Assembly: GCA_027485815.1 (NCBI GenBank) | Contig: JAIXQE010000176.1 | Coordinates: 1 to 64,000 of the forward strand | Source: Opitutaceae bacterium | Lineage (GTDB): Bacteria; Verrucomicrobiota; Verrucomicrobiia; Opitutales; Opitutaceae | Reading direction: 5' to 3' | DNA: 64,000 nucleotides | In this document: positions 10,998 through 59,531 of the stretch, piece by piece | Layout of the letters: the number at the start of each line of letters is the position of its first letter | How positions within the stretch are numbered: the stretch's first letter is position 1 | Program-made: the position numbers and the translations under genes | Notes under the pieces: generated by a model | Database searches by the model: none | What the model saw: the letters and a program-made list of their open reading frames with translations, nothing else | Told to the model about the DNA's origin: nothing

Positions 10998-11766
10998 ACT
11001 CTCCGCCTCCCTTCCCGCCGTCGTCCTCGACTGGGCCGGGACCACCATCGATCAAGGGTGCATGGCGCCCGTCTTCGCCCTGCAGGCCGTGCTGCGGCGC
11101 GAGGGCATCCCCACGTCGATCGAGGAACTGCGCCTCGAGATGGGCCTGCCAAAACGGGACCACCTCCGCTCCATCCTCTCGCACCACGGGATGACCGAGT
11201 TGACCGACCGGCTCTATCCCGAACTGGAGCGCGAGATGCTCGTCCAGGTGGCGGCACGCACCGACCTCATTCCCGGGGTGGCCGCGGCGGTGGCCTGGCT
11301 CCGCGCCGAGGGCATCGCCATCGGCACCACCACGGGCTATTCCCGGGTCATGCTGGAACGGGTTCTCCCCGCCGCCGCCGCCCAGGGCTATGCGCCGGAT
11401 GCGGTCGTCACCCCGGATGACGTCCCCGCCGGCCGCCCGGCGCCGTTCATGATGTACGCCAATGCGCTGCGGCTGGGGGTCTGGCCGCTCAGCCGCTTCG
11501 TGAAGGTCGGGGACACCCCGAGCGACATCGCGGAGGGCCGCAACGCCGGGGCGTGGACGATCGGGGTCGCGCTCACCGGCAACGCCCTGGGCCTCACGGA
11601 GCCGGAGATCCAGGCGCTTTCCGCCGGCGACCGTTCGGCCTGCTTTTCCGCCGCGCGCTCCGCGCTCCTCACCGCGGGGGCCCACGAGGTCATCGATGGA
11701 CTCGAGGAATTGCCCCAGGCCCTCACGCGGCTGGCTCGGCACGTGGCCGACGGGCGGCGGCCCTGA
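10990..11766 (+). CDS. phnX: Phosphonoacetaldehyde hydrolase (phosphonatase, 258 aa)
   Basis: This HAD-superfamily protein opens with the PhnX-type motif LDWAGTTID, with nucleophile D14 and an alanine where most HAD phosphatases have the second aspartate. The Schiff-base lysine is K55 in MGLPKRDHL, the hallmark that separates phosphonatases from other HAD enzymes. GTTTGY and VKVGDTPSDI supply the remaining HAD motifs. The enzyme converts phosphonoacetaldehyde to acetaldehyde and phosphate, the last step of 2-aminoethylphosphonate breakdown. Length is normal for the family. The partner transaminase gene phnW is not nearby; an FAD oxidoreductase converging from the other strand, 6 bases away, may take that role. 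Confidence 0.93.
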   Translation: MPKLSASLPAVVLDWAGTTIDQGCMAPVFALQAVLRREGIPTSIEELRLEMGLPKRDHLRSILSHHGMTELTDRLYPELEREMLVQVAARTDLIPGVAAAVAWLRAEGIAIGTTTGYSRVMLERVLPAAAAQGYAPDAVVTPDDVPAGRPAPFMMYANALRLGVWPLSRFVKVGDTPSDIAEGRNAGAWTIGVALTGNALGLTEPEIQALSAGDRSACFSAARSALLTAGAHEVIDGLEELPQALTRLARHVADGRRP

Positions 11767-11772
11767 GCCGCT

Positions 11773-12897
11773 TCAAGGAAGGGCCGCGACCACTTCCTCC
11801 GCGAGGCCGAAGGACAGGGTCATGCCGGCGCCGCCGAGGCCGTTGACGAGGGTGACCCCCGGCTCGGGCGAGAACACCCATTCGCTGCCCCCGTTCGTCA
11901 GCTTCGGGTAGACCCCGTGCCAGCGCTCCGCAATGGCGAGCGAGGGGGCCTGGAGGAACGTGCCCAGGTAGCCGAGGATCGCCGCGTTGATGTCCTCGCG
12001 ATCGAACGGATCGACGGTCAGCCCGTAGGCGTGCGAATCGCCGAGGGTCAGTTCGCGGCGGCCAGTCTCGGACACGAGGACGTGGATGCCGTGCGCGGTG
12101 TGGAAGGGCAGGTTGGCGCGCAGGCGCTCGCGGAGGGCCGGGAGCGACGGGCACGTCTGGAAGGAATCGTAGTGGGCGAGGGTAAGCCCCGCGCACAAGG
12201 CCGGACCCAGGGTCCACGCCGGGGGCTGGGGCCCGGTCCGCAGCATCTGCAGCTTGCAACGGGTGAGCGCCGCCGCGCGAAATTGTTCCGGGTACAGGGT
12301 CTCAAAGTCCGCCCCGCTGCAGACGATGACCCGGTCCGCCTGCAACTCCCCCCGGCTGGTCCGCACGCGGGGCAGGCGGATTTCCTGCACCGTCTCCCCG
12401 AACCGCAGCTCGACCCCGTGGTGTTCCTGCAGCCAGGCCGGGAGGCGGCCGATCGCCTCCCGCGGATCCACGGTGGCCTCGGTCGGACTCCAGAGCGCCC
12501 CGACCAAGCCCGCCGGACGGACGGCCGGGAAACGCGCCGCCACCTCCGGAGCCTCCAGCAAACTCCGGCCGTGGCCCGCGCCCGGGCCCGCGACAAATTC
12601 CCGGAGCACCTGCCATTCGTCCGCCTGATAGGCGAGGTGGAGGGAGCCTTCCGGCGCGAAGTGGATCCCGGTCTCCCGGGCGATCTCCGCCCACACGTCG
12701 CGGCTCCGCAGGGCCCGCGCGTGGCGCGGACCCTCGGGCTGGCCGATGGGCCACAGGAGCCCGAAGTTCCGGACCGAGGCCCCGACGGCCCGCTCCGTGC
12801 GCTCCACCAGGGCCACGCGGAGGCCGCGGCGCGCCGCCGCCCGCGCGTGCGCCAGCCCCACGATCCCCGCGCCCACCACCAGCAGATCGACCTTCAC
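11773..12897 (-). CDS. FAD-dependent oxidoreductase resembling phosphonate-linked (TIGR03364-like) enzymes (374 aa)
   Basis: The N-terminal dinucleotide-binding motif VVGAGIVGLAHARAAA and the following ERTERAVGASVRNFG place it in the DAO/glycine-oxidase superfamily, which oxidises amines and amino acids with FAD. The NFGLLWPIGQPEG segment and overall length resemble the TIGR03364 group, which is found beside phosphonatase genes. Members studied biochemically oxidise 2-aminoethylphosphonate or its N-methyl derivative to phosphonoacetaldehyde, the PhnX substrate. Here the gene converges on phnX with a 6-base gap and lies 105 bases downstream of a second TonB receptor on the same strand. Family placement is by memory of motifs; the exact amine substrate is inferred. 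Confidence 0.8.
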   Translation of the reverse strand: MKVDLLVVGAGIVGLAHARAAARRGLRVALVERTERAVGASVRNFGLLWPIGQPEGPRHARALRSRDVWAEIARETGIHFAPEGSLHLAYQADEWQVLREFVAGPGAGHGRSLLEAPEVAARFPAVRPAGLVGALWSPTEATVDPREAIGRLPAWLQEHHGVELRFGETVQEIRLPRVRTSRGELQADRVIVCSGADFETLYPEQFRAAALTRCKLQMLRTGPQPPAWTLGPALCAGLTLAHYDSFQTCPSLPALRERLRANLPFHTAHGIHVLVSETGRRELTLGDSHAYGLTVDPFDREDINAAILGYLGTFLQAPSLAIAERWHGVYPKLTNGGSEWVFSPEPGVTLVNGLGGAGMTLSFGLAEEVVAALP

Positions 12898-13002
12898 GGC
12901 TGCGCCCTCCGCGGCCGGACCGCTGGACGGCGGGTCCTCATCCCCCGCTGCCGTCCGCGGAAAGCGATAACCTCCAAGGCAGTCATCCGCGCGGATCTCC
13001 GT

Positions 13003-15303
13003 TCAGAAGCGCCGGGTGAGGCGAACGCCATAGGTGCGCGGGTCGCCGGCGACAAAGGTCGGGATGCCGAAGGCGCCGCCGGTGTTCCCGGCGTCGATGA
13101 TGTACTGCTGGTCGCGCAGGTTGTCCGCGTAGCCGGTCACTTCCCAACGTTGGTCGGCCGAGACGAAGGCGATCCGCAGCGCGAGGAGTCCGTAGCCATC
13201 CTGCCGCAGCAGCCCGCCCGCGTTGGCGTTGTTGTCGTCGAAGAAGTGCTTCGACTTGTACTGGTAACTGGGCGTCAGGCGGAAGGTGCCCGCCCCGGCC
13301 CACGGGAGGGAGAGGGTGGCCCCGAGGGAGTAGGTGCGCCGGGAGGTCAGGCGGAACGTGTTGCCGGCGAGCTGCTGGCGCTGGCCGCGATCATTCACCG
13401 CGTCGAAGGTCGCATCGGTGTAACCGAAGGTGGCGAAGGGGCTCAGGTTCGGGGTCAGGGCACCCTGGAGCGTGGCCTCGAAGCCCTTGCCCGTGGCGTT
13501 GCCGGCGTCGACCGTCGTCGTCAGGGGCGGCGGATTCGGATTCACCGCGGTGCTCTGGAAGTTCTGGTAGTCATAGCGGAACACCGAGGCGCTCCAGGTG
13601 ACGCGCCGGCCGAGCAGCGCGCCCTTCAGGCCGACCTCGTAGCTCCAGACGATCTCCTCCTGCAGCTCCACCGGGACATAGCGCCCGCCGACAAAGGAGA
13701 TGAGCAGCGTGTCCGGCCGGCGGCCGCGGGCGGCGCTGGCGAAGGCGCTCAGGCCGGGACTGAACTTGTAGCGGCCGACCAGCCGGGAGACCCACGAGCG
13801 GTAGTCCCGGCTCGCCTCGACCAGGCCGTTGGTCGGCGCGAAGAGCGCATTGGGGAAATTCGCCGCCGCGGTGGGAAAGCCGGCCGGCGTCAGCGCGTTG
13901 ACGACCTGATAGCCCGAGGTGACATCCTCGAAGGTCGCGCGCAGCCCTGCCGAAATCTCCAGCTGCGGGGTCAGGTTGAAGGTGCCATCGACGAAGACAT
14001 CATAGGCCTCGGTCGCGCCCGTCTGGGTGTATTCCTCCCGGTTGTAGGGGCGCAGCGGGCCGCCGGTCAGGGGATTGACGGCCAGAAGGGTATTGGGGCT
14101 CCCGTCGGGCAGGAACACGGGCACGCCGTTGCCCCGCAGGAGGAAGGCGGCGAACTGCCGCTCATCGGTGTAGAAGGGCACCCGGGCGGAGCCGCGCTCG
14201 TCAAAGAAGCTCAGGCCCGCGAAACCGCGGAAGCGCCCCCCGGCATCGTAGCTCAGCCGGAGCTCCTGGCTGAATTGGTCGCCCTGGTAATCCTCCGCGA
14301 ACTCGAGGATGTTCAGCCGGGTGCCGTCGGCGTCGAACGCCTCGAAGGAATCGAAGTCCCGGTACCCGGTGATGCTCGTCAGCGTGAAGGCGTCGTCGAA
14401 GTCGTGGGTGACGATCGCGGTCACGCCGGCGACGGTCCGATCGATGCGCAGCTCGGACCCGCGGTTCAGCTCGGCGGTGTCGAACGGACGGGTGTCGCCC
14501 CCGCGCGGCGCGAAGGTCCCGCTCTTGAACGAGGTGCCCGGCGGCTGGTCACGCTGGTAATTGAGGATCAGGTCCGCGGTGGTCGCGGAGGTCGGCTGCC
14601 AGCGCAGGCTGGTGCGGACCGCGAGGGTGTTCTTGCCGTTCAGATCCGACCCGTCCGCGACGTTCCGGATCGAGCCGTCGCGGTCCACATAGGTGAACGC
14701 CACGCGCGCGAAGACCTGGTTCGGCTGGAGCACGGTGTTGAAGGTGCCCGCCGCCTCCACCCGTCCGTAGTTCCCAAAGCCCGCCGTCAGCTGGCCCGCG
14801 TTGGTGTTCTGCGCCTTGTTCTGGATGATCGAGATCGCCCCGATCTGGGCACCCCGGCCAAACAGCGTCCCCTGCGGTCCCTTCAGCACCTCCACCCGCT
14901 CGAGGTCGAAGAGCTCCACCACGCTGCCCCGGGAACGGCTGATCGAGACGCCATCCTGGAAGATTGACACCCGCGTCTCCTGCCGGGGGTCGCCGCTGTC
15001 GGTGGTCACGCCCCGCACGTTGATGCCGGGATTGTTCGGCGACTGCTCCTGGATGAACAGGCCGGGGACGAACGGTGCCAGGTCCTTGAAGGAGCCGACG
15101 CCCATGCCCTGCAGGAAGGTCCCGGTGTAGGCGGTCACCGCGATCGGCACATTCTCGATCGCCTCGGTCCGCTTCTGGGAGGTGACCTCGAACTTGTCCA
15201 ACGCGACGACCTCGGTACCCGCCGGGGGCGGGACCGCGGCCCCGAGCGGGGACAGGGTGAAGAGGGCGGTCAGGACAAGGGGCGCGCGGGGAGGCTTGGT
15301 CAT
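13003..15303 (-). CDS. TonB-dependent receptor (766 aa)
   Basis: A signal peptide (MTKPPRAPLVLTALFTL) is followed by VVALDKFEVTSQKR, a typical TonB-box region, then the plug with VPIAVTAYTG, GINVRGV, FQDGVSISRSRGS, ERVEVLKGPQGTLFGRG and ISIIQNKA. The barrel ends RTYGVRLTRRF with a terminal phenylalanine. It resembles the large group of receptors for organic nutrients more than ferric-siderophore receptors. It precedes the FAD oxidoreductase gene on the same strand, so it may supply a phosphonate-type substrate. A site with two TCACCGGAG repeats 11 bases apart lies about 50 bases upstream of the ATG. Confidence 0.9.
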   Translation of the reverse strand: MTKPPRAPLVLTALFTLSPLGAAVPPPAGTEVVALDKFEVTSQKRTEAIENVPIAVTAYTGTFLQGMGVGSFKDLAPFVPGLFIQEQSPNNPGINVRGVTTDSGDPRQETRVSIFQDGVSISRSRGSVVELFDLERVEVLKGPQGTLFGRGAQIGAISIIQNKAQNTNAGQLTAGFGNYGRVEAAGTFNTVLQPNQVFARVAFTYVDRDGSIRNVADGSDLNGKNTLAVRTSLRWQPTSATTADLILNYQRDQPPGTSFKSGTFAPRGGDTRPFDTAELNRGSELRIDRTVAGVTAIVTHDFDDAFTLTSITGYRDFDSFEAFDADGTRLNILEFAEDYQGDQFSQELRLSYDAGGRFRGFAGLSFFDERGSARVPFYTDERQFAAFLLRGNGVPVFLPDGSPNTLLAVNPLTGGPLRPYNREEYTQTGATEAYDVFVDGTFNLTPQLEISAGLRATFEDVTSGYQVVNALTPAGFPTAAANFPNALFAPTNGLVEASRDYRSWVSRLVGRYKFSPGLSAFASAARGRRPDTLLISFVGGRYVPVELQEEIVWSYEVGLKGALLGRRVTWSASVFRYDYQNFQSTAVNPNPPPLTTTVDAGNATGKGFEATLQGALTPNLSPFATFGYTDATFDAVNDRGQRQQLAGNTFRLTSRRTYSLGATLSLPWAGAGTFRLTPSYQYKSKHFFDDNNANAGGLLRQDGYGLLALRIAFVSADQRWEVTGYADNLRDQQYIIDAGNTGGAFGIPTFVAGDPRTYGVRLTRRF

Positions 15304-20394: not shown

Positions 20395-23300
20395 ATGCCC
20401 CGCCCTGCCTCCCCTCTGCTGCTCGCCCTGGTTCCGCTCGCCCTTGCCGTTGCCCGCGCGGCCGACCCGGCTCCCGCGGCGGCGCCCCTGCCCGAGGTCG
20501 TCTCCTTCAACCAGCACATCCGCCCGATCCTGGCGGACGCGTGCTTCCACTGCCACGGGTTCGACGCCCAGACGCGCAAGGCCCGGCTCCGGCTCGACGT
20601 CCGCGAGGAGGCGCTCCGGCCCGCCAAAAGCGGCGCGATCCCGATCGTCCCCGGGCGCCCCGACCAGAGCGAACTCCTCCTCCGCATCGCCGACCCGGTC
20701 GACCCGATGCCGCCGGCGGACCACCACAAGGCGCTCACCGCCCAGCAGCAGGCCCTCCTGCGCCGCTGGATCGAGCAGGGCGCCCGCTACGAGACGCACT
20801 GGGCCTACGCGGCCCTCGAGCGGCCCGCCGTTCCCTCGGTTCCGGGTGCCGCGCACCCGATCGACGCCTTCATCCGCGCCCGCCTCGCCACGCAGTCGCT
20901 CCCGCCCGCCCCCGAGGCGGACCGGGCGCGGCTGCTCCGCCGCTTGGCGCTCGACCTGACCGGCCTGCCGCCCACGCCCGCGGAGACGGCCGCCTTCCTG
21001 AGCGATACCGCGCCGGGGGCCTATGAGCGCCAGGTGGAGCGCCTGCTCGCCTCGCCGCGCCACGGGGAGCGCCTCGCCGTGTGGTGGCTGGACCTCGCCC
21101 GCTACGCGGACACGGTGGGGTTCCACGGCGACCAGAACCAGCGGATCTTCCCGTACCGCGACTGGGTGATCAACGCCTTCAACGCCAACCAGCGCTTCGA
21201 CGCCTTCACCCTGGAGCAGCTGGCCGGCGACCTGTTGCCGAACCCGACTCCGGCCCAGCGCGTCGCCACCGGCTACAATCGCCTCAACATGATGACCCGC
21301 GAGGGCGGGGCGCAGCCGGCGGAGTACTTGGCCAAGTACGGGGCGGAACGGGTCCGTTCGGTCTCCGCGGCGTGGTTCGGCAGCACCTTCGGCTGCGCGG
21401 AGTGCCACGACCACAAGTTCGATCCGATTTTGGCGAAGGACTTTTACCAGCTGCAGGCCTTCTTCGCCGATGTGAAGCAGTGGGGCGTGTACGCGGATTA
21501 CGGCTACACCCGGAACGCCGACCTCGCGGGCTTCAACAACGACTATCCGTTCCCCCCGGAGATCGAGGTCGAGAGCGCCTACCTGCGGACGCGGCACCGC
21601 CGGGCCGAGGAACGCCTGCGCGCGCACGCCGCCGAGCTGCAGCGGACCGCGCCCGCCGCGGCGGTGGCAGCGTGGGCCGGCACCGCCGCGGCCTTCCTCG
21701 AACGCCATCCGGACGGCTGGCAGACCCCCGGGCCGGCGGCGGCGATCCTCCGCGCCAACAAGCCGCTCGCCAACGCGGCGGTGCGGATCGGGGACGATGG
21801 CTTCGCCTTCCCGGAAAAGCCCCTCGCGCGCAACGACACCCTCCAGCTCACGCTGACCCCCGGTCCCGGTACCGTCGCCGCGGTGCGGGTGGAGGTCACC
21901 GCCGGGAGCGGGGGCGCGTTCGCCGGCACCGCCGCCAAGAATCGCGGGACGTTCCGGCTCACGCTCAGCCGGCGGGATGCCGCCGGCGCGACGCGCCGCC
22001 TCCCGGTCGTCCACGCCGAGGCCGCGGCGAAGGACCGGCGCTACAAGGATGGCGAGGAGGTCATCGGGGTGACCACGGGCTGGAAGCTGCCCGCCCTCGC
22101 GGAGGGGCAGACGGTGGCCGCGGTCTGGCTGCTCGAAACGCCGGTGGCGCTGGCGGAGGGCGAGGCCCTGGTCGCGGTGTTGGCGGGGGATGTCGCCCTG
22201 CCGGTGCGGCTTGCCATCAGTCCCTTCGGGGCCGGGGAACCCTTGGCGGCGGCGGCGCCGGCGGTGCTGGCCGCGGTGCGGCGGCCGGACACGGAGCGCA
22301 CGGCGGACGAGCGGGCGGTGCTGGCGGAGGCGTGGCAGTTCAGCGCGGCGACCGACCGGGAACCGGTGGCGCGGTACCACGAGCTGGCCGCGGCGTGGCG
22401 CGAGACCCGCGGGGGACGCGCGTGGTCGCTCGTCACCGAGGCCGTGGAACCGCTGCCCGTCCGCGTGCTGCCGCGGGGTAACTGGCTCGACCAGAGCGGT
22501 CCACTGGTCCTGCCGGCGACGCCGTCCTTCCTGCCAGGCCGGCGGGAAAGCACGCCCGAGCGGCGCCTGACGCGCCTCGACCTGGCGCAATGGATCGTGT
22601 CGCGGGACAACCCGCTGACCGCGCGGGCGGTGGTGAATCGCCTCTGGGCGATGTATTTCGACACCGGCCTGAGCGCGGTGGTCGACGACTTGGGCTCGCA
22701 GGGGGAGCCGCCGTCGCACCCGGAGTTGCTCGACTGGCTGGCGACGGAGTTCCGCGATGGAGGGTGGGACCTGCGGCAGCTGATCCGGCTGATCGTGACG
22801 AGCGCGACCTACCGCCAGAGCAGCGTGGTGCGGCCGGAGCTGCGCGAGGCCGACCCGGCGAACCGCCTGCTCGCGGCCCAGCAGCCGCGGCGCCTGGAGG
22901 CGGAGTTCGTGCGCGATAATGCCCTGTTCATTGCCGGCGTGCTGAATCTGGCCGAGGTGGGCGGTCCCAGCGTGCGGCCGTACCAGCCGGCCGGGCACTA
23001 CGCCCAGCTGCAGTTCCCGGATCGCGACTATGCTGCGAGCCGGGATGAGGAGCAGTGGCGCCGCGGCGTGTACATGCACTGGCAGCGCACGTTCCTGCAC
23101 CCGATGCTGGCGAACTTCGACGCCCCGGCGCGCGATGAGTGCGCGGCGCAGCGCGTGGTGAGCAACACCCCGCAGCAGGCGCTGACGCTCCTGAACGATC
23201 CGACCTTCGTCGAGGCGGCGCCGCTGTTCGCGGTGCGGCTGCTGGGCGAGCCGGCCGCGGGCGACGACGCGCGGTTGGCGCGGGCGTTCCAGCTGGCGGT

Positions 23301-23511
23301 CGCGCGGGACCCGCGGGAGGCCGAGCGCGGCGGCCTGCGGACGCTCCTCGCGGCGCAACGCGAGCATTACCGGGGGCAACCGGAGGAGGCGCGCAAGCTG
23401 CTTGGGGTGGGCTTCGCGCCCACGCCGACGAGCGATGCCGCCGAGCACGCGGCCTGGACGCAGGTCGCGCGGGTGATCCTGAACCTGCAGGAGACCATCA
23501 CCCGTTACTGA
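20395..23511 (+). CDS. PSCyt/DUF1549/DUF1553 (planctomycete-type cytochrome) protein (1038 aa)
   Basis: A signal peptide (MPRPASPLLLALVPLALAVA) precedes a single-heme PSCyt1 domain with CFHCHG (C50, C53, H54) and MPPADHHKALT. The DUF1549 domain follows around residues 150-370, containing CAECHDHKFDPI, a second CxxCH. An insertion of about 200 residues then has no obvious homology. DUF1553 fills the C-terminus (ARAVVNRLWAMYFDTGL, GWDLRQLIRLIVTSATYRQ, NTPQQALTLLNDPTFVEAA). These proteins abound in Planctomycetota and Verrucomicrobiota beside DUF1501 proteins and are thought to act in periplasmic polymer breakdown; no reaction is established. The DUF1501 partner starts 36 bases downstream. Confidence 0.9.
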   Translation: MPRPASPLLLALVPLALAVARAADPAPAAAPLPEVVSFNQHIRPILADACFHCHGFDAQTRKARLRLDVREEALRPAKSGAIPIVPGRPDQSELLLRIADPVDPMPPADHHKALTAQQQALLRRWIEQGARYETHWAYAALERPAVPSVPGAAHPIDAFIRARLATQSLPPAPEADRARLLRRLALDLTGLPPTPAETAAFLSDTAPGAYERQVERLLASPRHGERLAVWWLDLARYADTVGFHGDQNQRIFPYRDWVINAFNANQRFDAFTLEQLAGDLLPNPTPAQRVATGYNRLNMMTREGGAQPAEYLAKYGAERVRSVSAAWFGSTFGCAECHDHKFDPILAKDFYQLQAFFADVKQWGVYADYGYTRNADLAGFNNDYPFPPEIEVESAYLRTRHRRAEERLRAHAAELQRTAPAAAVAAWAGTAAAFLERHPDGWQTPGPAAAILRANKPLANAAVRIGDDGFAFPEKPLARNDTLQLTLTPGPGTVAAVRVEVTAGSGGAFAGTAAKNRGTFRLTLSRRDAAGATRRLPVVHAEAAAKDRRYKDGEEVIGVTTGWKLPALAEGQTVAAVWLLETPVALAEGEALVAVLAGDVALPVRLAISPFGAGEPLAAAAPAVLAAVRRPDTERTADERAVLAEAWQFSAATDREPVARYHELAAAWRETRGGRAWSLVTEAVEPLPVRVLPRGNWLDQSGPLVLPATPSFLPGRRESTPERRLTRLDLAQWIVSRDNPLTARAVVNRLWAMYFDTGLSAVVDDLGSQGEPPSHPELLDWLATEFRDGGWDLRQLIRLIVTSATYRQSSVVRPELREADPANRLLAAQQPRRLEAEFVRDNALFIAGVLNLAEVGGPSVRPYQPAGHYAQLQFPDRDYAASRDEEQWRRGVYMHWQRTFLHPMLANFDAPARDECAAQRVVSNTPQQALTLLNDPTFVEAAPLFAVRLLGEPAAGDDARLARAFQLAVARDPREAERGGLRTLLAAQREHYRGQPEEARKLLGVGFAPTPTSDAAEHAAWTQVARVILNLQETITRY

Positions 23512-23547
23512 AGCCGACGCGTCCCGCCTCACCCTCCTTCCCTTCCG

Positions 23548-24987
<1,440 letters not shown>

Positions 24988-48029: not shown

Positions 48030-48371
48030 ATGCTCCGCTGCCACGCTCCTTTTCTTCTGCTCTCGCTGTTGACCGTCGCCACCGCCTTTGCGGCTGCGGC
48101 GCCAACCGCCGCCCAGAATTACGAGAAGCACTGCGCCGGCTGCCACGGCACCGACGGCAAGGGCCAGACGCGCCTCGGTCGGAAGTCGGGGGCGAAGAAC
48201 CTCACGGACAAGGCCGGGGCCGGCAAACTCACCGACGCCGAGCTCTTCCGCACCATCCAGGCCGGCCGTCGCGATGACCAAGGCCGCGAGCGGATGGAGG
48301 GCTTCGGCAACGACCTTTCCGCCGCCGAAATCACCGACCTCGTCGCCTACGTCCGCCGCTTCACCAAGTAA
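48030..48371 (+). CDS. Small class I c-type cytochrome (113 aa)
   Basis: A signal peptide (PFLLLSLLTVATAFAAAA) precedes one heme site, CAGCHG (C35, C38, H39). A probable axial methionine lies in RERMEGFGNDLSAAE, in the usual position before the C-terminal helix ITDLVAYVRRF. Such monoheme proteins shuttle electrons in the periplasm. It is the first gene of a three-gene set with an octaheme lipoprotein and a porin, so it may be the soluble electron donor to that complex. Confidence 0.93.
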   Translation: MLRCHAPFLLLSLLTVATAFAAAAPTAAQNYEKHCAGCHGTDGKGQTRLGRKSGAKNLTDKAGAGKLTDAELFRTIQAGRRDDQGRERMEGFGNDLSAAEITDLVAYVRRFTK

Positions 48372-48390
48372 CCTGCCGCCGCCTTCCCCC

Positions 48391-49179
48391 ATGGCCTTCC
48401 GCTTCCGCCCCCCCTCCAACGCGCTGCTCTTCGGCCTCGTCGCCGGGTGGTCCGCGCTGCTCGTTTCCTGCGTCATCACCCAGCGCTCGATCCTGATGCC
48501 GCCCCAGATCGCGGGCGCCACGTTCGTCGGCTCCGACAGCTGCGTGAAGTGCCACGCCAACATCACCTCGGGCTTCCACGACGCCACGCACGCCCGGCTC
48601 GAGCTGAAGGGCGACGACGGGAAACCGAAGAACGTCTCCTGCGAGTCTTGCCACGGCGGCGGCAGCCTCCACGTGCGCGCTGGCACCCGCGAGACGATCC
48701 TCAACCCGAAGGTCTCCCCAGACACCTGCCTGCAGTGCCACCCGAACACCCGGGCGGAGTTCAACCTGCCGCACACCCACCCGGTGCTGTCCGGCAAGAT
48801 CGCCTGCACGCACTGCCACGACCCGCACCAGGGCGAGGCGCTGAAGGACGGCGGGGCGCGCGCCCTGGTCGCCCAGACCAATGCCACCTGCGCGAAGTGC
48901 CACCCGGCGCAGTCGGGCCACCACACGTTCGCCCACGAGGCGATGCGGGAAGGCTGCGTCAGCTGCCATTCGCCGCACGGCTCGGTGAACGACAAGATGC
49001 TCAAGGCGCGCGGCAACGCCCTCTGCTACCAGTGCCACTTCCAGAACCAGACCGCGGACACCGCCATCATCCACGGCGGCGTCAACCACGCCGGCAACGT
49101 CATCCGCGGCACTTGCTGGTCGGCGGGCTGCCACGAGGCCGTCCACGGTTCCAACGTCAACTCGTCCCTCCGCTACTGA
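48391..49179 (+). CDS. Octaheme c-type cytochrome lipoprotein, DmsE/MtrA-like (262 aa)
   Basis: Seven CxxCH heme sites (CVKCH, CESCH, CLQCH, CTHCH, CAKCH, CVSCH, CYQCH) and one CX4CH variant (CWSAGCHEAVHGSN) give eight predicted hemes in about 230 residues. This suits a linear electron wire; DmsE and MtrA have ten. The signal ends in a lipobox (LLVSC, C27), so it is membrane-anchored. The terminal RGTCWSAGCHEAVHGSN is a DmsE-family hallmark. The gene overlaps the porin gene by one base (TGATG), a strong sign that the two products act together across the outer membrane. Confidence 0.92.
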   Translation: MAFRFRPPSNALLFGLVAGWSALLVSCVITQRSILMPPQIAGATFVGSDSCVKCHANITSGFHDATHARLELKGDDGKPKNVSCESCHGGGSLHVRAGTRETILNPKVSPDTCLQCHPNTRAEFNLPHTHPVLSGKIACTHCHDPHQGEALKDGGARALVAQTNATCAKCHPAQSGHHTFAHEAMREGCVSCHSPHGSVNDKMLKARGNALCYQCHFQNQTADTAIIHGGVNHAGNVIRGTCWSAGCHEAVHGSNVNSSLRY

Positions 49180-51254
49180 TGCACTCCCCAGCCTTCTCCT
49201 TCCGCGGGGAGCGCGCCCGCCTCGCCCGGCGTCTCACGGCCGCGCTCGCCCTGCTGGCGGCCGCGACCGCGGCCTCGGCCCAGACCACCACCTCGGGTTC
49301 CATCAGTGTCGGGGGCGGCGGTGCCGCCTCGGTCGACGGCAACGCCGCGACCTTCCAGCAGCGCGTGCGCCAGAGCGAGAGCGGCTACGGCGGGCTCGAG
49401 CAGTACACGCTCACCCGCACCGACGACGCGTCGCTCTTCCGCTTCGAGGCCCGCGCGATGCCGGGCGACGGCGACTACCGCCTGCTCGGCCGCTTCGAGA
49501 AGTACGATGCGTTCTACCTCGAGGCGAACTTCCGCCAGTTCCGCATCTTCTACGACGGCTCCGGCGGGAGCCTCGTGCCCCGCAACCTCTCGTTCTCGTG
49601 GTTCGACGAGGCCCTCGAACTGGACCGCAGCTACCTGTCCATCGAGCTCGGCACGCTCGGGGAAAACCGCCCGCAGTTCCGCCTCCGCTACGACCGCAAC
49701 ACCCGCGAGGGCGCCAAGAACTCGATCCGCTGGGGCGACTCCAGTTTCGCCGGCGCCCCGTTCTCGCCCCGCGCCTTCATCCCGTCCTACCTGCTGGTGG
49801 ACGAGGTCCGCGACATCGTCACCGCGGAGGTCAGCCGCCGCACGGATCAGGAGGCCTGGAAGGTCGCCGGCCGCTACGAGCGGAGCCGGGTCAACAACCG
49901 CCACGTCGGCCGCCGCCGCATCCAGGAACCGCAGGACCGCACCGTCACCACCTACGAGGGCTCCGACAGCGAGCTCTTCTCCGGTCACGCCACGTATGAG
50001 CGGGTGCTGGACGAGCAGCTGCGCCTCGCCGCGGGCGGCATGTCCACGACCATCGATACCAACCTGAGCGGCAGCAAAATCTACGGGGCCGGGCCCGACG
50101 CCACGTACTCCCCCACCTTCGCCGCCCGGCAGCAGGGCGATGTCGGGTACTACGGGCTGATCGGCGATACCCGCCTCCGCCAGTACGTGGGGAACCTCAA
50201 CCTCGTCTACACCCCGGACAAGTACTGGACGATCCTGCCGGCCGTGCGCTACGAGCACCTCCGGGTCGAGGCGGGTGAGAGCCATACGGACACCAATTTC
50301 GCCGGCGCCGCGCTCGCGGCCACGCAGAACCTGATCGAGGCCAGCAGCCGCGACGCGTGGAACGAAGTCACGGAGGACATCGAGTTCCGCTACCGCCGCT
50401 CCGCCGACTGGAACTTCAGCGCGCGCGCCCAGTGGAACCAGGGCGAAGGCAGCCTGCTCGAGCAGAGCATTCTGCTCCCCGCCGCCTCCCCGGTCATCGA
50501 CCGCGACTCCGATTACGAGCGCCGGGGCGCCCGCTACACCGCCGCCGTCTCGTGGTATCCCCGGCCCGGACTCACCTTCGGCGCCCAGTACAATTACCGG
50601 CTGAAGCTCGCCGATTACCGCGCCCGCCGCGACCGCACCTCCAACGCGACGACCGCGAACGACCGTTACCCGCACTTCATCGTCGACCAGGACATCGCCA
50701 GCCAGGACGTCAGCCTCCGCGCCTCCTGGCGGCCCACGACCAGCCTCAGCCTGGTCTCCCGCTACGCGCACCAGCGGGCCACGATCACGTCCACCTTCGA
50801 CAACCTCCCCGAGATCCGCGGCGGCCGCCTCGTGCGCCACGTTGTCACCCAGACCGCGACCTGGAACGCCTCCACGCGGCTCTACCTCACGGGTGCGTTC
50901 AACGTCACCTACGACCAGCTCTGGGTGCCGGCCAACCGCTACCTGGTGATCGCGGACAACAACCACACCAGCGCCTCCCTCGGCGCGGGCTACGTGCTGG
51001 GCAAGGTGACCGACTTGTTCATCGACACCTCGTATTTCCGGGCCGACAATTACACGGACAACCCGGACTTCACGCTCCCGCTCAACGCCGGGCACCTGAT
51101 GCAGTCGTCGTACGTCACCTGGGTCCGGCGTCACACCGACCGCCTGATCTACACCCTGCGCTATGGCTATGTGACCAATCGCGACGGGACCTTCGCCGGT
51201 TTGAAGGACTTCGACGCGCACGTGGTCTACGGCCGCGTGCAGTACAAGTTCTGA
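49179..51254 (+). CDS. Outer-membrane porin of MtrB/PioB type (691 aa)
   Basis: A signal peptide (LARRLTAALALLAAATAASA) is followed by a long succession of amphipathic strands with alternating Tyr/Arg residues. The protein ends in YGRVQYKF, with the terminal phenylalanine of outer-membrane barrels. Length and pattern (about 26 strands) match MtrB/PioB porins, which sheath a multiheme cytochrome so that electrons cross the outer membrane. Unlike Shewanella MtrB, no CxxC near the N-terminus is visible. It directly follows the octaheme gene. An outer-face cytochrome (MtrC/OmcA) is not encoded next to it. Confidence 0.82.
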   Translation: MHSPAFSFRGERARLARRLTAALALLAAATAASAQTTTSGSISVGGGGAASVDGNAATFQQRVRQSESGYGGLEQYTLTRTDDASLFRFEARAMPGDGDYRLLGRFEKYDAFYLEANFRQFRIFYDGSGGSLVPRNLSFSWFDEALELDRSYLSIELGTLGENRPQFRLRYDRNTREGAKNSIRWGDSSFAGAPFSPRAFIPSYLLVDEVRDIVTAEVSRRTDQEAWKVAGRYERSRVNNRHVGRRRIQEPQDRTVTTYEGSDSELFSGHATYERVLDEQLRLAAGGMSTTIDTNLSGSKIYGAGPDATYSPTFAARQQGDVGYYGLIGDTRLRQYVGNLNLVYTPDKYWTILPAVRYEHLRVEAGESHTDTNFAGAALAATQNLIEASSRDAWNEVTEDIEFRYRRSADWNFSARAQWNQGEGSLLEQSILLPAASPVIDRDSDYERRGARYTAAVSWYPRPGLTFGAQYNYRLKLADYRARRDRTSNATTANDRYPHFIVDQDIASQDVSLRASWRPTTSLSLVSRYAHQRATITSTFDNLPEIRGGRLVRHVVTQTATWNASTRLYLTGAFNVTYDQLWVPANRYLVIADNNHTSASLGAGYVLGKVTDLFIDTSYFRADNYTDNPDFTLPLNAGHLMQSSYVTWVRRHTDRLIYTLRYGYVTNRDGTFAGLKDFDAHVVYGRVQYKF

Positions 51255-55644: not shown

Positions 55645-57099
55645 TCAGGCAAACAGCTCCCGCACGGGGCGGCCCTTGCCGTCTTCCGTCACGTAGAACG
55701 GCCGGCCCTCGATGCTGAACTCGGTCTGCGGGCTGATGCCCATCGCCGCCATGATGGTCGCGTGCAGGTCCCGCACGGTCACCGGGTCCTTGATCGCCAA
55801 CAGCGGCCGCTCGTCGGCCGTCCGACCGTGGACGTACCCGCGCTTGGTGCCCCCACCAAAGAAGACCACACTGGTGCCACCGGTGAAGTGCCGGTGGAGG
55901 CCGTAGTGCGCCATCTCCCCCAAGGTATCGACCTTGAAGGTCGCCTGGTCGTTGGCGGTGGATCCCGGGCGGCCCTCCATCATCGCATCGCGGCTGAACT
56001 CGCTCGCCACGATGACGAGGGTCCGCTCCAGCAGCCCGCGCGCCTCCAGATCCCGCACGAGGGTCGCGATGGGCCGGTCGATCTCCCGGTGCAGGCGCGC
56101 GACGGTCTCGTGGCCGTCCTTATGGGTGTCCCAATGGAGGAAGGGCACGTACTCGGTGGTCACCTCAACGAAGCGCGCCCCGGCCTCGACGAGCCGGCGG
56201 GCGAGCAGGCAGCCACGTCCGAACCGGCCGGTGTCGTACTGGGCCTGCACCTCCGGGGACTCCCGGGTCAGGTCGAACGCCTCCCGCTCCTTGCTGCTGA
56301 GCAGGCGGTAGGCGTTGTCCATGCTGCGCAAAAGGGACTGCCGCTGGTAATCGCTCATCCGGTCGCGGTCGGGATTGGCGTCCACGAGCTGGCGGAACAG
56401 GCGGTCGCGGTTGGCGAAGCGCCCGGCGTCCATCCCCGGCGGCGGGCGCACGGAGACGGCGGCCTCCTCGGGAAACGGGAGGTTCAAGGGGCCGAACTCG
56501 GCGCCGAAGAATCCCGCGGTGGTGAAGGCCTTCAGCTCCTCGCTCTCGCCGACGCCCTCGAGCCGCTGGCCGATGTTGATGAAGGCGGGCATCACCGGGT
56601 TGCGCGGGCCGAGCACCTTGGCCATCCAGGCGCCGAGGTGAGGGCAGGCGACGGTCTGGGGCGGCACGTAGCCGGTGTGCCAATGGTATTGATGCCGCGA
56701 GTGCAGGATGCTGCCCAGATCCGGCTGCACGGCGCTGCGGAGGAGGGTGGCGCGGTCCATCACCTGCGCGATCTGCTCCAATCCCTGGCAGATCTTCAGT
56801 CCATCCACCGCGGTGTCGATCGCCGGGAAGGTGCTGAGCATCCGCGCGACCTCGAGGCCCTTTTCGAACGGCAGGTAACGCTTGGGATCAAAGGTGTCCG
56901 GCGCGGCCATCCCGCCGGCCATCCAGAGCAGGATGCAGGCGTCCGCCTTTGCCGGCGGGTGCGCCACCGGGGCGCTGTTCGCCCGGACGGCCTGCGGCAC
57001 CCCGGTGGACCACGCGGCCGCGCTGGCGGCGGCCAGCTGCTTGAGGAAATCGCGGCGGACGATCGCGGGCGGGGCCTGGGGATCGAGCAAGGGATACAT
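55645..57099 (-). CDS. DUF1501 sulfatase-like exported protein, second copy (484 aa)
   Basis: A Tat motif (VRRDFLKQLAAASAAAW) is followed by DUF1501 blocks: ACILLWMAGGMAAPDTFDPK, FVEVTTEYVPFLHWDTHKDG, LVIVASEFSRDAMMEG, YGLHRHFTGGTSVVFFGGG and RDLHATIMAAMGISPQTEF. It differs substantially from the copy at 23.5 kb, so it is not a recent duplicate. It lies 20 bases downstream of the PSCyt/DUF1553 gene on the same strand. The ATG at 57099 gives a short leader before the Tat motif; 21 extra in-frame codons upstream overlap the neighbour and are unlikely. Confidence 0.91.
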   Translation of the reverse strand: MYPLLDPQAPPAIVRRDFLKQLAAASAAAWSTGVPQAVRANSAPVAHPPAKADACILLWMAGGMAAPDTFDPKRYLPFEKGLEVARMLSTFPAIDTAVDGLKICQGLEQIAQVMDRATLLRSAVQPDLGSILHSRHQYHWHTGYVPPQTVACPHLGAWMAKVLGPRNPVMPAFINIGQRLEGVGESEELKAFTTAGFFGAEFGPLNLPFPEEAAVSVRPPPGMDAGRFANRDRLFRQLVDANPDRDRMSDYQRQSLLRSMDNAYRLLSSKEREAFDLTRESPEVQAQYDTGRFGRGCLLARRLVEAGARFVEVTTEYVPFLHWDTHKDGHETVARLHREIDRPIATLVRDLEARGLLERTLVIVASEFSRDAMMEGRPGSTANDQATFKVDTLGEMAHYGLHRHFTGGTSVVFFGGGTKRGYVHGRTADERPLLAIKDPVTVRDLHATIMAAMGISPQTEFSIEGRPFYVTEDGKGRPVRELFA

Positions 57100-57119
57100 C
57101 GGGGAAACGAAGGACAGAC

Positions 57120-59531
57120 TTAATGAACGTAAACGAACTCGGGCTGCATCAGGAGGGCCCACAGCAGGTCCGCGATGGCGGGCGCGGTCGGCTGCGGCCC
57201 GAGGAGTTCCGCCGCGGCGCGTCGTTCGCTGGGCTCCGGCGGGCGAGCCAAGGTGCGCGTGTACAGGTGGTTGATGAGGGCGGCGGGATCGGGCCAGGGC
57301 TGGGCGGCGAGCCGGGCGGCCCCCTGCTCCAGCGCGCGGGTGAGCGTCTGGCCGTTGGCAAGATCGAGGGCCTCGAGGGTGGTCAATTCCTCGGGCCGCA
57401 TGGAGACGATCTGATCGCGGTTGGGCCGGCCGAGGGGGCGCATCAGGAAGTCACTCTTCACGAGCGAGGCGCGGACCATCCGGCCGGCGGGGCCGCGGCC
57501 CTGGGCCAGCAGGGGCGGCCCCTGGCGCGCCAGGGCTTCGGCCCGCGCGGGCGAGGCCGCGACTACGGAAGCGGGCTGGACGTTCTTCGGCAAGGCCCCG
57601 AGCCGGCCTTCCCGGCCCGCGTTGCCGCCAGGGCTGAATTGCCACGCCGCATCGCTGTGGAGCGTGGCCACCGTGCCGTCGGCGAGGCGGACCTCGGCCT
57701 GGAAATAAACCCCGGCCCCGGGGCCCGGGCCGGCGTGCCGGGCGATCACCACGACCTGATTGCTGCCGGCCTTCAGCTTGTCGTGCAGCGGGACCGCGGC
57801 GACGTGCTCCCCGCGGTCGCTACCGGTGATTCTCCGGCCGTTCAGATAGAGGGTGAAGCCGTCCCCGCCCGTCACGATCGCGGCGCCGCTGACGGGTTCC
57901 GCAGCGAGTTTCCAGTCGGTGCGCAGGAGGCCGTTCTCGCCGTCGGGCTTCGCCTGGGCGGAGGGAGCCGGCGGGCCCCAGATCCATTGGCCGGTGAGGG
58001 GGAGGCTGGCGGCGGCCGCGGCGTCGGGCAGGCGGCGAAACACCGGGGCGTCCATCTTCTGCGGGGCGGTGCCGGTGAGCTGCCAGACGGCGTCCACAAA
58101 CTGTTCCGCGGTGAGGCGCTTGGCGCGGGGGCCCGCGAAGACCGGCGCGTTCGCGTCCCCGCGGAGGACCTCGCTGCGCGCCTGGTAGATCTGCGAGGTG
58201 GCGAGGTGGGCGAGGGTCCGCTTCACGTCGTAGCCCGTCTGCTGGAAGTGGTTGGCGAGGGCGTCGAGCAGGTCGGCGCTCCATGGCTCGCTCTGCATCG
58301 CGTCGAGCGGATGGACGATCCCGCGCCCCATCAGGCGGTGCCAGAGGCGGTTGACGAGGGTGCGCGGGAAGCGGCCGTTCTCCGGATGAGTCATCAGGGC
58401 GGCGAGCTGGCGGAGGCGCTCGGCGCGCGGGGCCTCCGGGTCGACGTTGCCCAGTTCCGGGAAGAGCCAGGCCGGCCGGGCGGTGCGGCCCAGCGGCTGG
58501 TCGCAGCGATTCACCTCGAGCGGCTTTTCCGCGTAGATGGCGGCCAGGCCGTAGGCCTCATCGAGCTTCCAGCGGTCGACGAAGCTGTCGTGGCAGGAGG
58601 CGCACTTCAGGTTGAGGCCGAGGAACGACTGCCCGACGCTCTGGGCGAACTGGATCTCGACCGTCTGGCCGGCGCTGACTTCGCCGCGCCACTTGATCCC
58701 GTCGCTGAAGCCGCGGCTCTCGTCGCCCGGCGGGGCGATCAGTTCGCGGGCGAACTGGTCGAAGGGCTTGTTGGTCAGGAGCGCCTCGTGCAGCCACTGG
58801 CTGATTTGCCGGCGGCCGCCCGTGATGAACCCGGTGCCGCCATAGTCGTTCCGGAGCAGGTCATTCCAGAAGGTGAGCCAGTGCTCGGCGTAGTCCGTGT
58901 CGCGCGCGAGCAGGGCGTGCACGAGGCGCGTGCGTTTGTCGGGGGCGGGATCCTGCACGAAGGCCGCGACCTCCTCGGGGCTGGGCAGCAGGCCGATCAG
59001 GTCGAGGTGGGCGCGACGGAGAAAGGTGGCGTCGCTCGCGGGCGGGGGCCGCGGCAGGTTATGCTTCGCCAGGTAGGCATCGACGAGGCGGTCGACCGGA
59101 TGGTCGCGGCCGGCGACGGGCGGCGGCAGGGGCACGGCGCGGGGCTTCAGCGGCGGCTCGTAGGCCGGGGCCTGGAAGGCGAAGCCGGGTTCCCACGGCA
59201 GGCCTTCGGCGATCCATTGCCGGAGCAGCGAGACTTCCGCCGCGGACAGGCCATCGCCCTTGGGGGGCATCCGCTCGTCGCGATCCGTGCTGGCGACCAG
59301 CTGGAGCAGGAGGCTCTGCTCCGGTTTCCCGGGGGCGACGACGGGGCCGTTTTCGCTGCCGTGGAGGAGGGCGGAGCGGTCGTTCAGCGAGAAGCCGCCC
59401 TTGAGTTTATCCCCGGTGTGGCACTCGCCGCAGTGCTTGCGGAGGAGGGGCACGATCTGGTGGTTGAAGTCGACCGCGGCGGAAAGCGGAGCGACCCAAC
59501 CGAGGAGAAGGAGACGAAGGGAAAGCTTCAC
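57120..59531 (-). CDS. PSCyt/DUF1549/DUF1553 protein, second copy (803 aa)
   Basis: A signal peptide (VKLSLRLLLLGWVAPLSAA, GTG start) precedes a heme-binding PSCyt1 domain with CGECHTGDKLKGG and ERMPPKGDGLSAAE. DUF1549 follows (FLRRAHLDLIGLLPSPEEV, LKCASCHDSFVDRWKL). DUF1553 (NRLWHRLMGRGIVHPLDAMQ) comes next, then a lectin-like insertion around residues 520-650 (DGFTLYLNGRRITGSDRGEH) and a final helical part. No other start keeps the signal peptide, so GTG at 59531 is favoured. It is the upstream partner of the DUF1501 gene. The inserted beta-sandwich suggests binding to a polymer. Confidence 0.88.
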   Translation of the reverse strand: MKLSLRLLLLGWVAPLSAAVDFNHQIVPLLRKHCGECHTGDKLKGGFSLNDRSALLHGSENGPVVAPGKPEQSLLLQLVASTDRDERMPPKGDGLSAAEVSLLRQWIAEGLPWEPGFAFQAPAYEPPLKPRAVPLPPPVAGRDHPVDRLVDAYLAKHNLPRPPPASDATFLRRAHLDLIGLLPSPEEVAAFVQDPAPDKRTRLVHALLARDTDYAEHWLTFWNDLLRNDYGGTGFITGGRRQISQWLHEALLTNKPFDQFARELIAPPGDESRGFSDGIKWRGEVSAGQTVEIQFAQSVGQSFLGLNLKCASCHDSFVDRWKLDEAYGLAAIYAEKPLEVNRCDQPLGRTARPAWLFPELGNVDPEAPRAERLRQLAALMTHPENGRFPRTLVNRLWHRLMGRGIVHPLDAMQSEPWSADLLDALANHFQQTGYDVKRTLAHLATSQIYQARSEVLRGDANAPVFAGPRAKRLTAEQFVDAVWQLTGTAPQKMDAPVFRRLPDAAAAASLPLTGQWIWGPPAPSAQAKPDGENGLLRTDWKLAAEPVSGAAIVTGGDGFTLYLNGRRITGSDRGEHVAAVPLHDKLKAGSNQVVVIARHAGPGPGAGVYFQAEVRLADGTVATLHSDAAWQFSPGGNAGREGRLGALPKNVQPASVVAASPARAEALARQGPPLLAQGRGPAGRMVRASLVKSDFLMRPLGRPNRDQIVSMRPEELTTLEALDLANGQTLTRALEQGAARLAAQPWPDPAALINHLYTRTLARPPEPSERRAAAELLGPQPTAPAIADLLWALLMQPEFVYVH

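Follow-up and report, generated by a model that had tools for sequence, protein, structure and literature searches.

The genes at positions 48030–51254 of a 64,000-nucleotide stretch from an Opitutaceae bacterium (contig JAIXQE010000176.1), here called the window, raise the question of whether they encode a conduit that carries electrons across the outer membrane. The initial annotation read there, in this order, genes for a monohaem cytochrome, an eight-haem lipoprotein cytochrome (hereafter the octahaem) and an MtrB-like porin, and all three were recovered in that order (Table 1). The first two are spaced by 19 bp and the last two overlap by one base as had been claimed, the stop codon of the octahaem gene (TGA) and the start codon of the porin gene (ATG) having this base in common. 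Our analysis suggests that the cluster probably encodes a divergent, phylum-typical MtrAB, in which a lipid-anchored octahaem wire would be sheathed in a 26-strand porin and provide an electron path out of the cell. The proposal of a porin-cytochrome conduit is thus well supported, by a 26-strand MtrB-like structure model and by the homology of the octahaem to MtrA. Measured against G009, a close relative with 95.8% protein identity, the porin gives a ratio of non-synonymous to synonymous substitutions (dN/dS) of 0.056, with 147 of its 177 differences in third codon positions, and the octahaem one of 0.025 over 120 comparable codons, indicating that both are maintained coding genes and that the three-gene cluster is under purifying selection. 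Long antisense open reading frames (ORFs) overlap the cluster (49173–51221 and others), as is expected anyway in GC-rich DNA.

The porin has a signal-like N-terminus, and its structure model (predicted local distance difference test, pLDDT, 84.1; predicted template-modelling score, pTM, 0.79) is a barrel of 26 strands by our own count, in which residues 589–593 are merged with 596–606. Strands 2 to 4 of the model are short, with 10–12 residues; in the MtrB of the Mtr structure 22 longer strands come after four short ones (PMC7198977). The best solved match of the model is 6r2q_B, with a Foldseek E of 4.6e-15 and a Z of 24.3 over 572 residues (root-mean-square deviation 3.8), and the next is a TonB-dependent transporter chain with Z 18.3. 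When the porin profile was aligned to Shewanella MtrB with hhalign the match was 98.2% (E 4.6e-14), and the controls gave 0.9% (TonB receptors), 0.2% and 0.1%. The fold and the profile match together indicate that the porin is a remote MtrB and not an unrelated channel, in line with the name given to it in the initial annotation. By the strand count, and by that measure alone, the barrel is not too narrow for the cytochrome, a concern that had been raised there.

Family models hardly recognise the protein. The only family found for the window porin is NF041027, with 15 bits against a cut-off of 350, and five out of 23 porins in the alignment match it (best 1.7e-4); for the window porin nothing in Pfam exceeded the cut-off, PF11854 (MtrB_PioB) included, and the latter has matches in two of the 23 (E up to 0.1, best 1.8e-7). 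Searches of PDB sequences with the porin, as a single sequence and as a profile, gave no match. TIGR03509 has no match in the window genome, a result that is weak on its own, 14 control genomes being equally blank, and the model works, with 714.6 bits on a Shewanella porin and 250 bits on an MtrB from the same genus as the window. A profile designated 'dec' is matched by the porin with E 2.8e-32, a rough value as its porin-like rows are the nearest long ORFs with unchecked start codons, and it also matches the TonB control (69.5%, E 4.2e-5). One CXXC (CKGC, CKRC or CKNC) is found in all seven Shewanella porins retrieved, L160 giving no ORF, whereas the window porin lacks the motif, as had been noted, and has no cysteine at all.

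The octahaem carries seven CXXCH motifs in the order CVKCH, CESCH, CLQCH, CTHCH, CAKCH, CVSCH and CYQCH, and then the terminal CX4CH motif CWSAGCH, in agreement with the eight haems assigned earlier. In 22 aligned near relatives the eight motifs, the cysteine C27 and exactly eight further histidines (H67, H94, H130, H146, H182, H196, H233 and H252) are invariant; in a wider set of 26 sequences six of the eight histidines remain so, and H130, H233 and C27 are conserved in at least 90%. Because exactly eight further histidines are conserved beside the eight motifs, we infer that the protein is suited to hold eight bis-histidine haems. The acylation that had been proposed is borne out by motif, through the presence of a lipobox, LVSC. 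C27 is directly followed by valine, and the E. coli lipoprotein sorting rule, which reads the residue after the lipobox cysteine, therefore predicts the outer membrane. A lipobox-like cysteine is found in 77 of 79 distinct octahaems (82 distinct matches minus two fragments and one decahaem), none of the 77 with Asp next to the cysteine, and the two others are L111, whose assigned start is doubtful, and L138. CX4CH is likewise the last haem motif in 77 of the 79. The 45 decahaem-type relatives found among the best 80 of 304 loci in a scan of public genomes end with CXXCH in 44 cases, the exception, L145, being a 1074-aa ORF. The 'DmsE-type ending' ascribed to the octahaem was thus rejected, and the predicted lipid anchor and the CX4CH last haem are instead marks of the octahaem family. 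Lipoboxes are, by pattern, carried by some decahaem relatives too.

The best solved relative of the octahaem is 6r2q_A of the Mtr complex (phmmer 3.4e-27; profile 1.1e-44), which we take to be MtrA, the database label for the chain being wrong. In the alignment with decahaem relatives the octahaems have a gap opposite MtrA haems 3 and 4, so that the octahaem, a homologue of MtrA, can be described as an MtrA with one two-haem unit missing; the profile match is also compatible with another haem pairing since haem pairs resemble each other. The best-scoring family is NF041028 (140.8 bits, cut-off 325), and the DmsE-family model TIGR03508 gives 137.3 bits. The latter score is what a DmsEF-type conduit, in which the electrons would go to a reductase at the surface that acts on a soluble acceptor, would have in its favour, but it lies below the cut-off of 192.2, and no DmsAB-like reductase was read in the window from N-terminal sequences only, with no family-library scan of the neighbours, and such a conduit is highly improbable here.

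The octahaem and the porin form a fixed gene pair. Among the 77 distinct octahaem loci (85 minus six duplicates and minus L051 and L071, which are without octahaem; L056, holding both an octahaem and a decahaem, is counted), a porin gene stands beside that of the octahaem in 73. Three of the four misses are contig ends, and in the fourth, L122, an unrecognised 731-aa ORF ending in FQF takes the place of the porin. The porin profile has no match in the 45 decahaem-type loci, and virus contigs gave one weak match. In the public-genome scan the best 80 of 304 loci comprise 34 octahaems with eight motifs, one fragment (L123) and the 45 others, which have exactly ten motifs in 42 cases and 22, 11 and 11 in L132, L145 and L148. 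In L132 (8825–10753), from Planctomycetota, the 22 haem motifs are in a single MtrA-like protein. Thirty-two of the 34 octahaems are verrucomicrobial, the remaining two being L112, a near-copy of Limisphaerales L113, and L138 (Omnitrophota). In a tree from which L123, L132, L145 and L148 were left out, the octahaems group together except for a long-branched decahaem, L124, among them, and a single octahaem/decahaem change is found in 16% of 200 bootstrap trees; the octahaems may have one origin. The window octahaem falls within a 24-row clade (99/94) of verrucomicrobial metagenome-assembled genomes (MAGs) plus further relatives. Within the phylum the distribution is patchy, since only 16 of the 288 genomes of the phylum sample, the window's own counted in, have the octahaem at 1e-20. 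In a genome of the same genus (G008) a genuine MtrAB-type pair (L056, 11853–15616) is located near an octahaem-porin cluster and scores above both cut-offs (TIGR03509 250 bits, TIGR03508 261 bits). In the tree the decahaem of this pair is placed with those of Thiorhodococcus and Azonexus, which suggests acquisition by transfer.

A homologue of the monohaem cytochrome is found within the fetched stretch, which differs in length between loci, in 46 of the 77 octahaem loci. In eight loci of one 11-row clade (L106, L107, L109, L112, L114, L115, L120 and L121) the porin itself starts with a CXXCH domain, matched by PF07635 (PSCyt1, a planctomycete-type cytochrome domain) in seven of seven scanned fused porins and recognised in L107 by motif only; these are 8 of the 88 porin-matching ORFs, fragments and duplicates included. 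A separate monohaem gene was detected by hidden Markov model (HMM) in none of the eight fused loci and in 46 of the 69 others (p 3.7e-4, where the one clade amounts to one evolutionary event), and in L115 there is another small CXXCH ORF within reach. The fusion in this clade is an argument for counting the monohaem cytochrome among the components of the conduit. In L111, which belongs to that clade as well, a like domain precedes an interrupted barrel. These gene arrangements also bear on whether the porin and a periplasmic octahaem form no complex at all, the barrel being an ordinary large channel. The failure of the family models on the window porin and the poor model of the octahaem (pLDDT 45.7) would agree with that, but MtrB clearly outscores every other structural match, the pair is fixed in 73 of 77 loci and one clade has porins with a fused haem domain, so we give this explanation very little credence.

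The window genome is 97% complete, and the window locus covers only part of the pathway: a further octahaem-porin pair and a hexahaem gene that is not linked to it are located elsewhere. The second pair (C30; L007, 6818–9640) is 58% and 42% identical to that of the window, has no monohaem gene by HMM in its 17-kb stretch, and is situated downstream of a gene for an 834-aa secreted protein read as immunoglobulin-like. On contig C160 a second monohaem gene is followed by one for a 502-aa hexahaem protein of the NapC/NirT family (PF03264, 41.8 bits, cut-off 24.1), likely a quinol dehydrogenase. Such a hexahaem gene is found in 31 of 95 related genomes, and all 31 also have the porin, which 43 of the 95 possess; the 52 porin-less genomes are without the hexahaem gene. 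By genus it occurs in 17, all among the 20 porin-bearing ones of 67 (Fisher 1.5e-15 for genomes and 3.4e-13 for genera, statistics that ignore shared ancestry). In one genome, G029, the genes for porin, octahaem, hexahaem and monohaem directly follow one another. We assign the hexahaem protein to the NapC/NirT family rather than to CymA because CymA homologues in one survey were confined to Proteobacteria (PMC6295460).

The hexahaem gene is near the pair in 21 of the 77 loci; a set of tetrahaem, iron-sulphur (FeS) and NrfD genes is present in 11, 11 and 12 of them, and a CbcL-like c/b-haem protein in 10. It therefore seems that one and the same conduit is served by a variety of quinone modules. 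In L079 the NrfD protein (11490–13235), which belongs to a quinone module beside the conduit, has a PF00027 cyclic-nucleotide-binding domain inserted mid-protein (residues 302–386), and a like insertion can be seen by eye in L088 (1869–3575). The window genome itself has no CbcL-like module, the octahaem alone being matched (5.9e-4), and its sole NrfD match sits in an apparent alternative complex III (ACIII) cluster. The modules are relevant also to a non-respiratory use of the conduit, i.e. redox balancing or supply of electrons to extracellular enzymes. There is no known acceptor and the window neighbours are not obviously respiratory as read from their N-termini, which would suit such a use, but the tight co-occurrence with a likely quinol dehydrogenase and the quinone-type modules at other loci speak for respiration, and we regard the non-respiratory use as improbable.

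The genes, haem motifs, lipobox, fold, homology, constant gene pairing and co-occurrence with the hexahaem cytochrome rest on sequence or prediction; for the assembly of the complex, the direction of flow, the acceptor and the role of each carrier we infer the following path. Quinol would be oxidised at the inner membrane by the hexahaem NapC/NirT-type cytochrome, encoded here on C160, which would pass the electrons to the class I monohaem cytochrome. The octahaem should then take them up at its N-terminal haem, which the lipid would keep near the periplasmic face, and conduct them across the barrel to its C-terminal CX4CH haem on the cell surface; the C-terminus of MtrA points outward in the Mtr structure (PMC7198977). 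From the surface haem the electrons might go directly to an external acceptor, e.g. humic quinones or Fe(III).

Export is preferred over uptake because quinone modules are present and RuBisCO was not found in the 97%-complete genome. With uptake, electrons from Fe(II) or reduced humics would pass through the conduit and the monohaem cytochrome to an oxidase or quinone, as in MtoAB or PioAB, which likewise have no external cytochrome (PMC6344600); an oxidase could receive electrons from a class I monohaem cytochrome, and an apparent ACIII-oxidase cluster is present. The missing RuBisCO leaves no autotrophic Fe(II) oxidation by that route, however, and modules of the NapC, NrfD and CbcL types, though reversible, fit quinol oxidation at least equally well, so that uptake appears unlikely, if less so than the other alternatives considered here.

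Several points weigh against a conduit for export. No MtrC-type external cytochrome was found in the window genome (PF22113), and none is encoded beside the window pair. The hexahaem gene is unlinked to the cluster, its co-occurrence with the porin is affected by the shared ancestry mentioned above, 12 of the 43 porin-bearing genomes are without it, and the restriction of CymA homologues to Proteobacteria tells in the same direction. The contigs of L106 and L107 end too soon for a separate monohaem gene to be seen. Members of the CymA and CbcL families are present in Fe(III) reducers as well as in Fe(II) oxidisers (PMC6295460). Finally, the apparent ACIII adjoins an oxidase according to the gene order, and the bacterium therefore probably respires oxygen too.

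Beyond the divergent MtrAB preferred here, a more specific proposal can be made, which we put forward tentatively and hold to be somewhat doubtful as a whole: the phylum as a whole may have a self-contained wire, its octahaem anchored by lipid on the periplasmic side and passing through the MtrB-type barrel, in which the unusual CX4CH exit haem is itself the surface reductase, making an outer cytochrome unneeded, and which would be loaded by the monohaem cytochrome from a dedicated hexahaem quinol dehydrogenase in humic respiration. The monohaem cytochrome is a protein of its own in Opitutaceae, and in a Limisphaerales-type clade it forms one protein with the barrel.

Table 1. Features of the octahaem-porin cluster and the evidence for them (positions in the window)
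Feature	Position	Strand	Evidence
Class I monohaem cytochrome c, 113 aa, one CXXCH, signal-like N-terminus, proposed periplasmic carrier of electrons to the wire	48030..48371	+	PF13442 and PF00034 above cut-off
Octahaem lipoprotein, 262 aa, MtrA-like, without counterpart of MtrA haems 3 and 4	48391..49179	+	Haem motifs, MtrA match, alignment
Predicted lipobox cysteine C27 (LVSC) of the octahaem	48469..48471	+	Invariant in 22 sequences
CX4CH motif CWSAGCH, haem 8 of the octahaem, expected extracellular exit haem	49114..49134	+	CX4CH in 77/79 octahaems
MtrB-like outer-membrane barrel, 26 predicted strands, 691 aa, C-terminal end QYKF, without cysteine	49179..51254	+	Structure model, profile

No other predicted gene of the 64-kb window encodes more than two CXXCH, which agrees with the earlier statement that the locus has no external cytochrome gene. 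Two pairs in the window (20395–24987 and 55645–59531) each consist of a large two-CXXCH protein adjoining a protein of about 480 aa, and are read as candidate planctomycete-type cytochrome pairs, from reading only. In the window genome PF09699 matches only the two octahaems and an eight-haem protein with tetratricopeptide repeats (TPR) on C212; the latter (L177, 6896–9139) is a lipoprotein-like protein of 747 aa with eight CXXCH followed by the TPR repeats.

If the conduit is real, widespread polymer degraders of lakes and soils could pass electrons to humics or minerals, and estimates of carbon flow in anoxic water would change. If the self-contained wire holds true, polymer-degrading Verrucomicrobia gain a route to respire humics. 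The group has been listed as 'not known for EET' (extracellular electron transfer; PMC6344600), and a system published as unrelated is now tied to the MtrAB fold. The eight haems and the fused monohaem domain are natural variations that test how short and self-contained a wire can be.

Precedent for verrucomicrobial porin-multihaem clusters, referred to in the initial annotation, is found in He et al. 2017 (PMC5615132), who described them in six bog MAGs and also, among others, in Opitutus terrae; the cytochromes there have eight haems, and 20 or more strands are predicted for the porins. They proposed EET to humics, with an external cytochrome only in some clusters, called the cytochrome periplasmic and considered the clusters non-homologous to the systems of Shewanella or Geobacter. 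The window cluster is of this kind by the features described, having in common the verrucomicrobial origin and a porin clustered with a cytochrome with eight haem sites, and the porin model with 26 strands exceeds the 20; the published non-homology to Shewanella is at variance with the divergent MtrAB proposed here. The words 'lipoprotein', 'NapC', 'monoheme', 'fused' and 'fusion' have no occurrence in the main text of that paper. Earlier, in 2013, a metagenome study of peat had included an Opitutus 'MtrA' in an alignment with decahaem MtrA, placing it as outgroup to the latter, and reported for it 7–8 canonical haem sites, the eighth being 'TxxCH' (PMC3669403). This looks like the tail of a CX4CH motif, since the last octahaem motif in G029 reads CWTAGCH. 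Expression of multihaem cytochromes in polymer-degrading Verrucomicrobiota was reported in a 2020 digester study (PMC7382037), and a 2026 cave study linked porin-decahaem clusters with ImcH- or NapC/NirT-like cytochromes (PMC13264449). In the open-licence PMC texts available no experimental test of a verrucomicrobial conduit was found. To this the present analysis contributes the assignment of the porin to the MtrB fold, the predicted lipid anchor, the recognition of the last haem motif as CX4CH, the co-occurrence with the hexahaem cytochrome and the fusion with PSCyt1, five points not found in the passages of the open-licence PMC papers that were covered.

Among characterised systems, MtrAB, PioAB and MtoAB have MtrA homology, the MtrB fold and adjacent genes in common with the window cluster, and PioAB and MtoAB also lack an external partner gene as at the window locus. 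They have ten haems versus eight, and the window octahaem differs in the CX4CH last haem and the predicted lipid anchor. By family model a true MtrAB was rejected, as the window proteins are below both cut-offs (TIGR03508 137.3 against 192.2 bits; no TIGR03509 match). The pair of the GSU2203/GSU2204 type is the source of the best family matches, NF041028 for the octahaem and NF041027 for the porin, but is of decahaem type, and the window scores are far below the cut-offs of 325 and 350 bits. The Geobacter Pcc (OmbB-OmaB-OmcB), a porin with a periplasmic eight-haem cytochrome (PMC4245776), is alike by this description, but has a 12-haem outer cytochrome in addition, and in the window cluster there is none, no other gene having more than two CXXCH. 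Cyc2 is a cytochrome-porin fusion, as are the monohaem-barrel proteins in one clade of the relatives, whereas the window porin is unfused and has no CXXCH; in the fused relatives, unlike Cyc2, the domain belongs to PSCyt1, and the octahaem is encoded by a gene of its own next to that of the porin.

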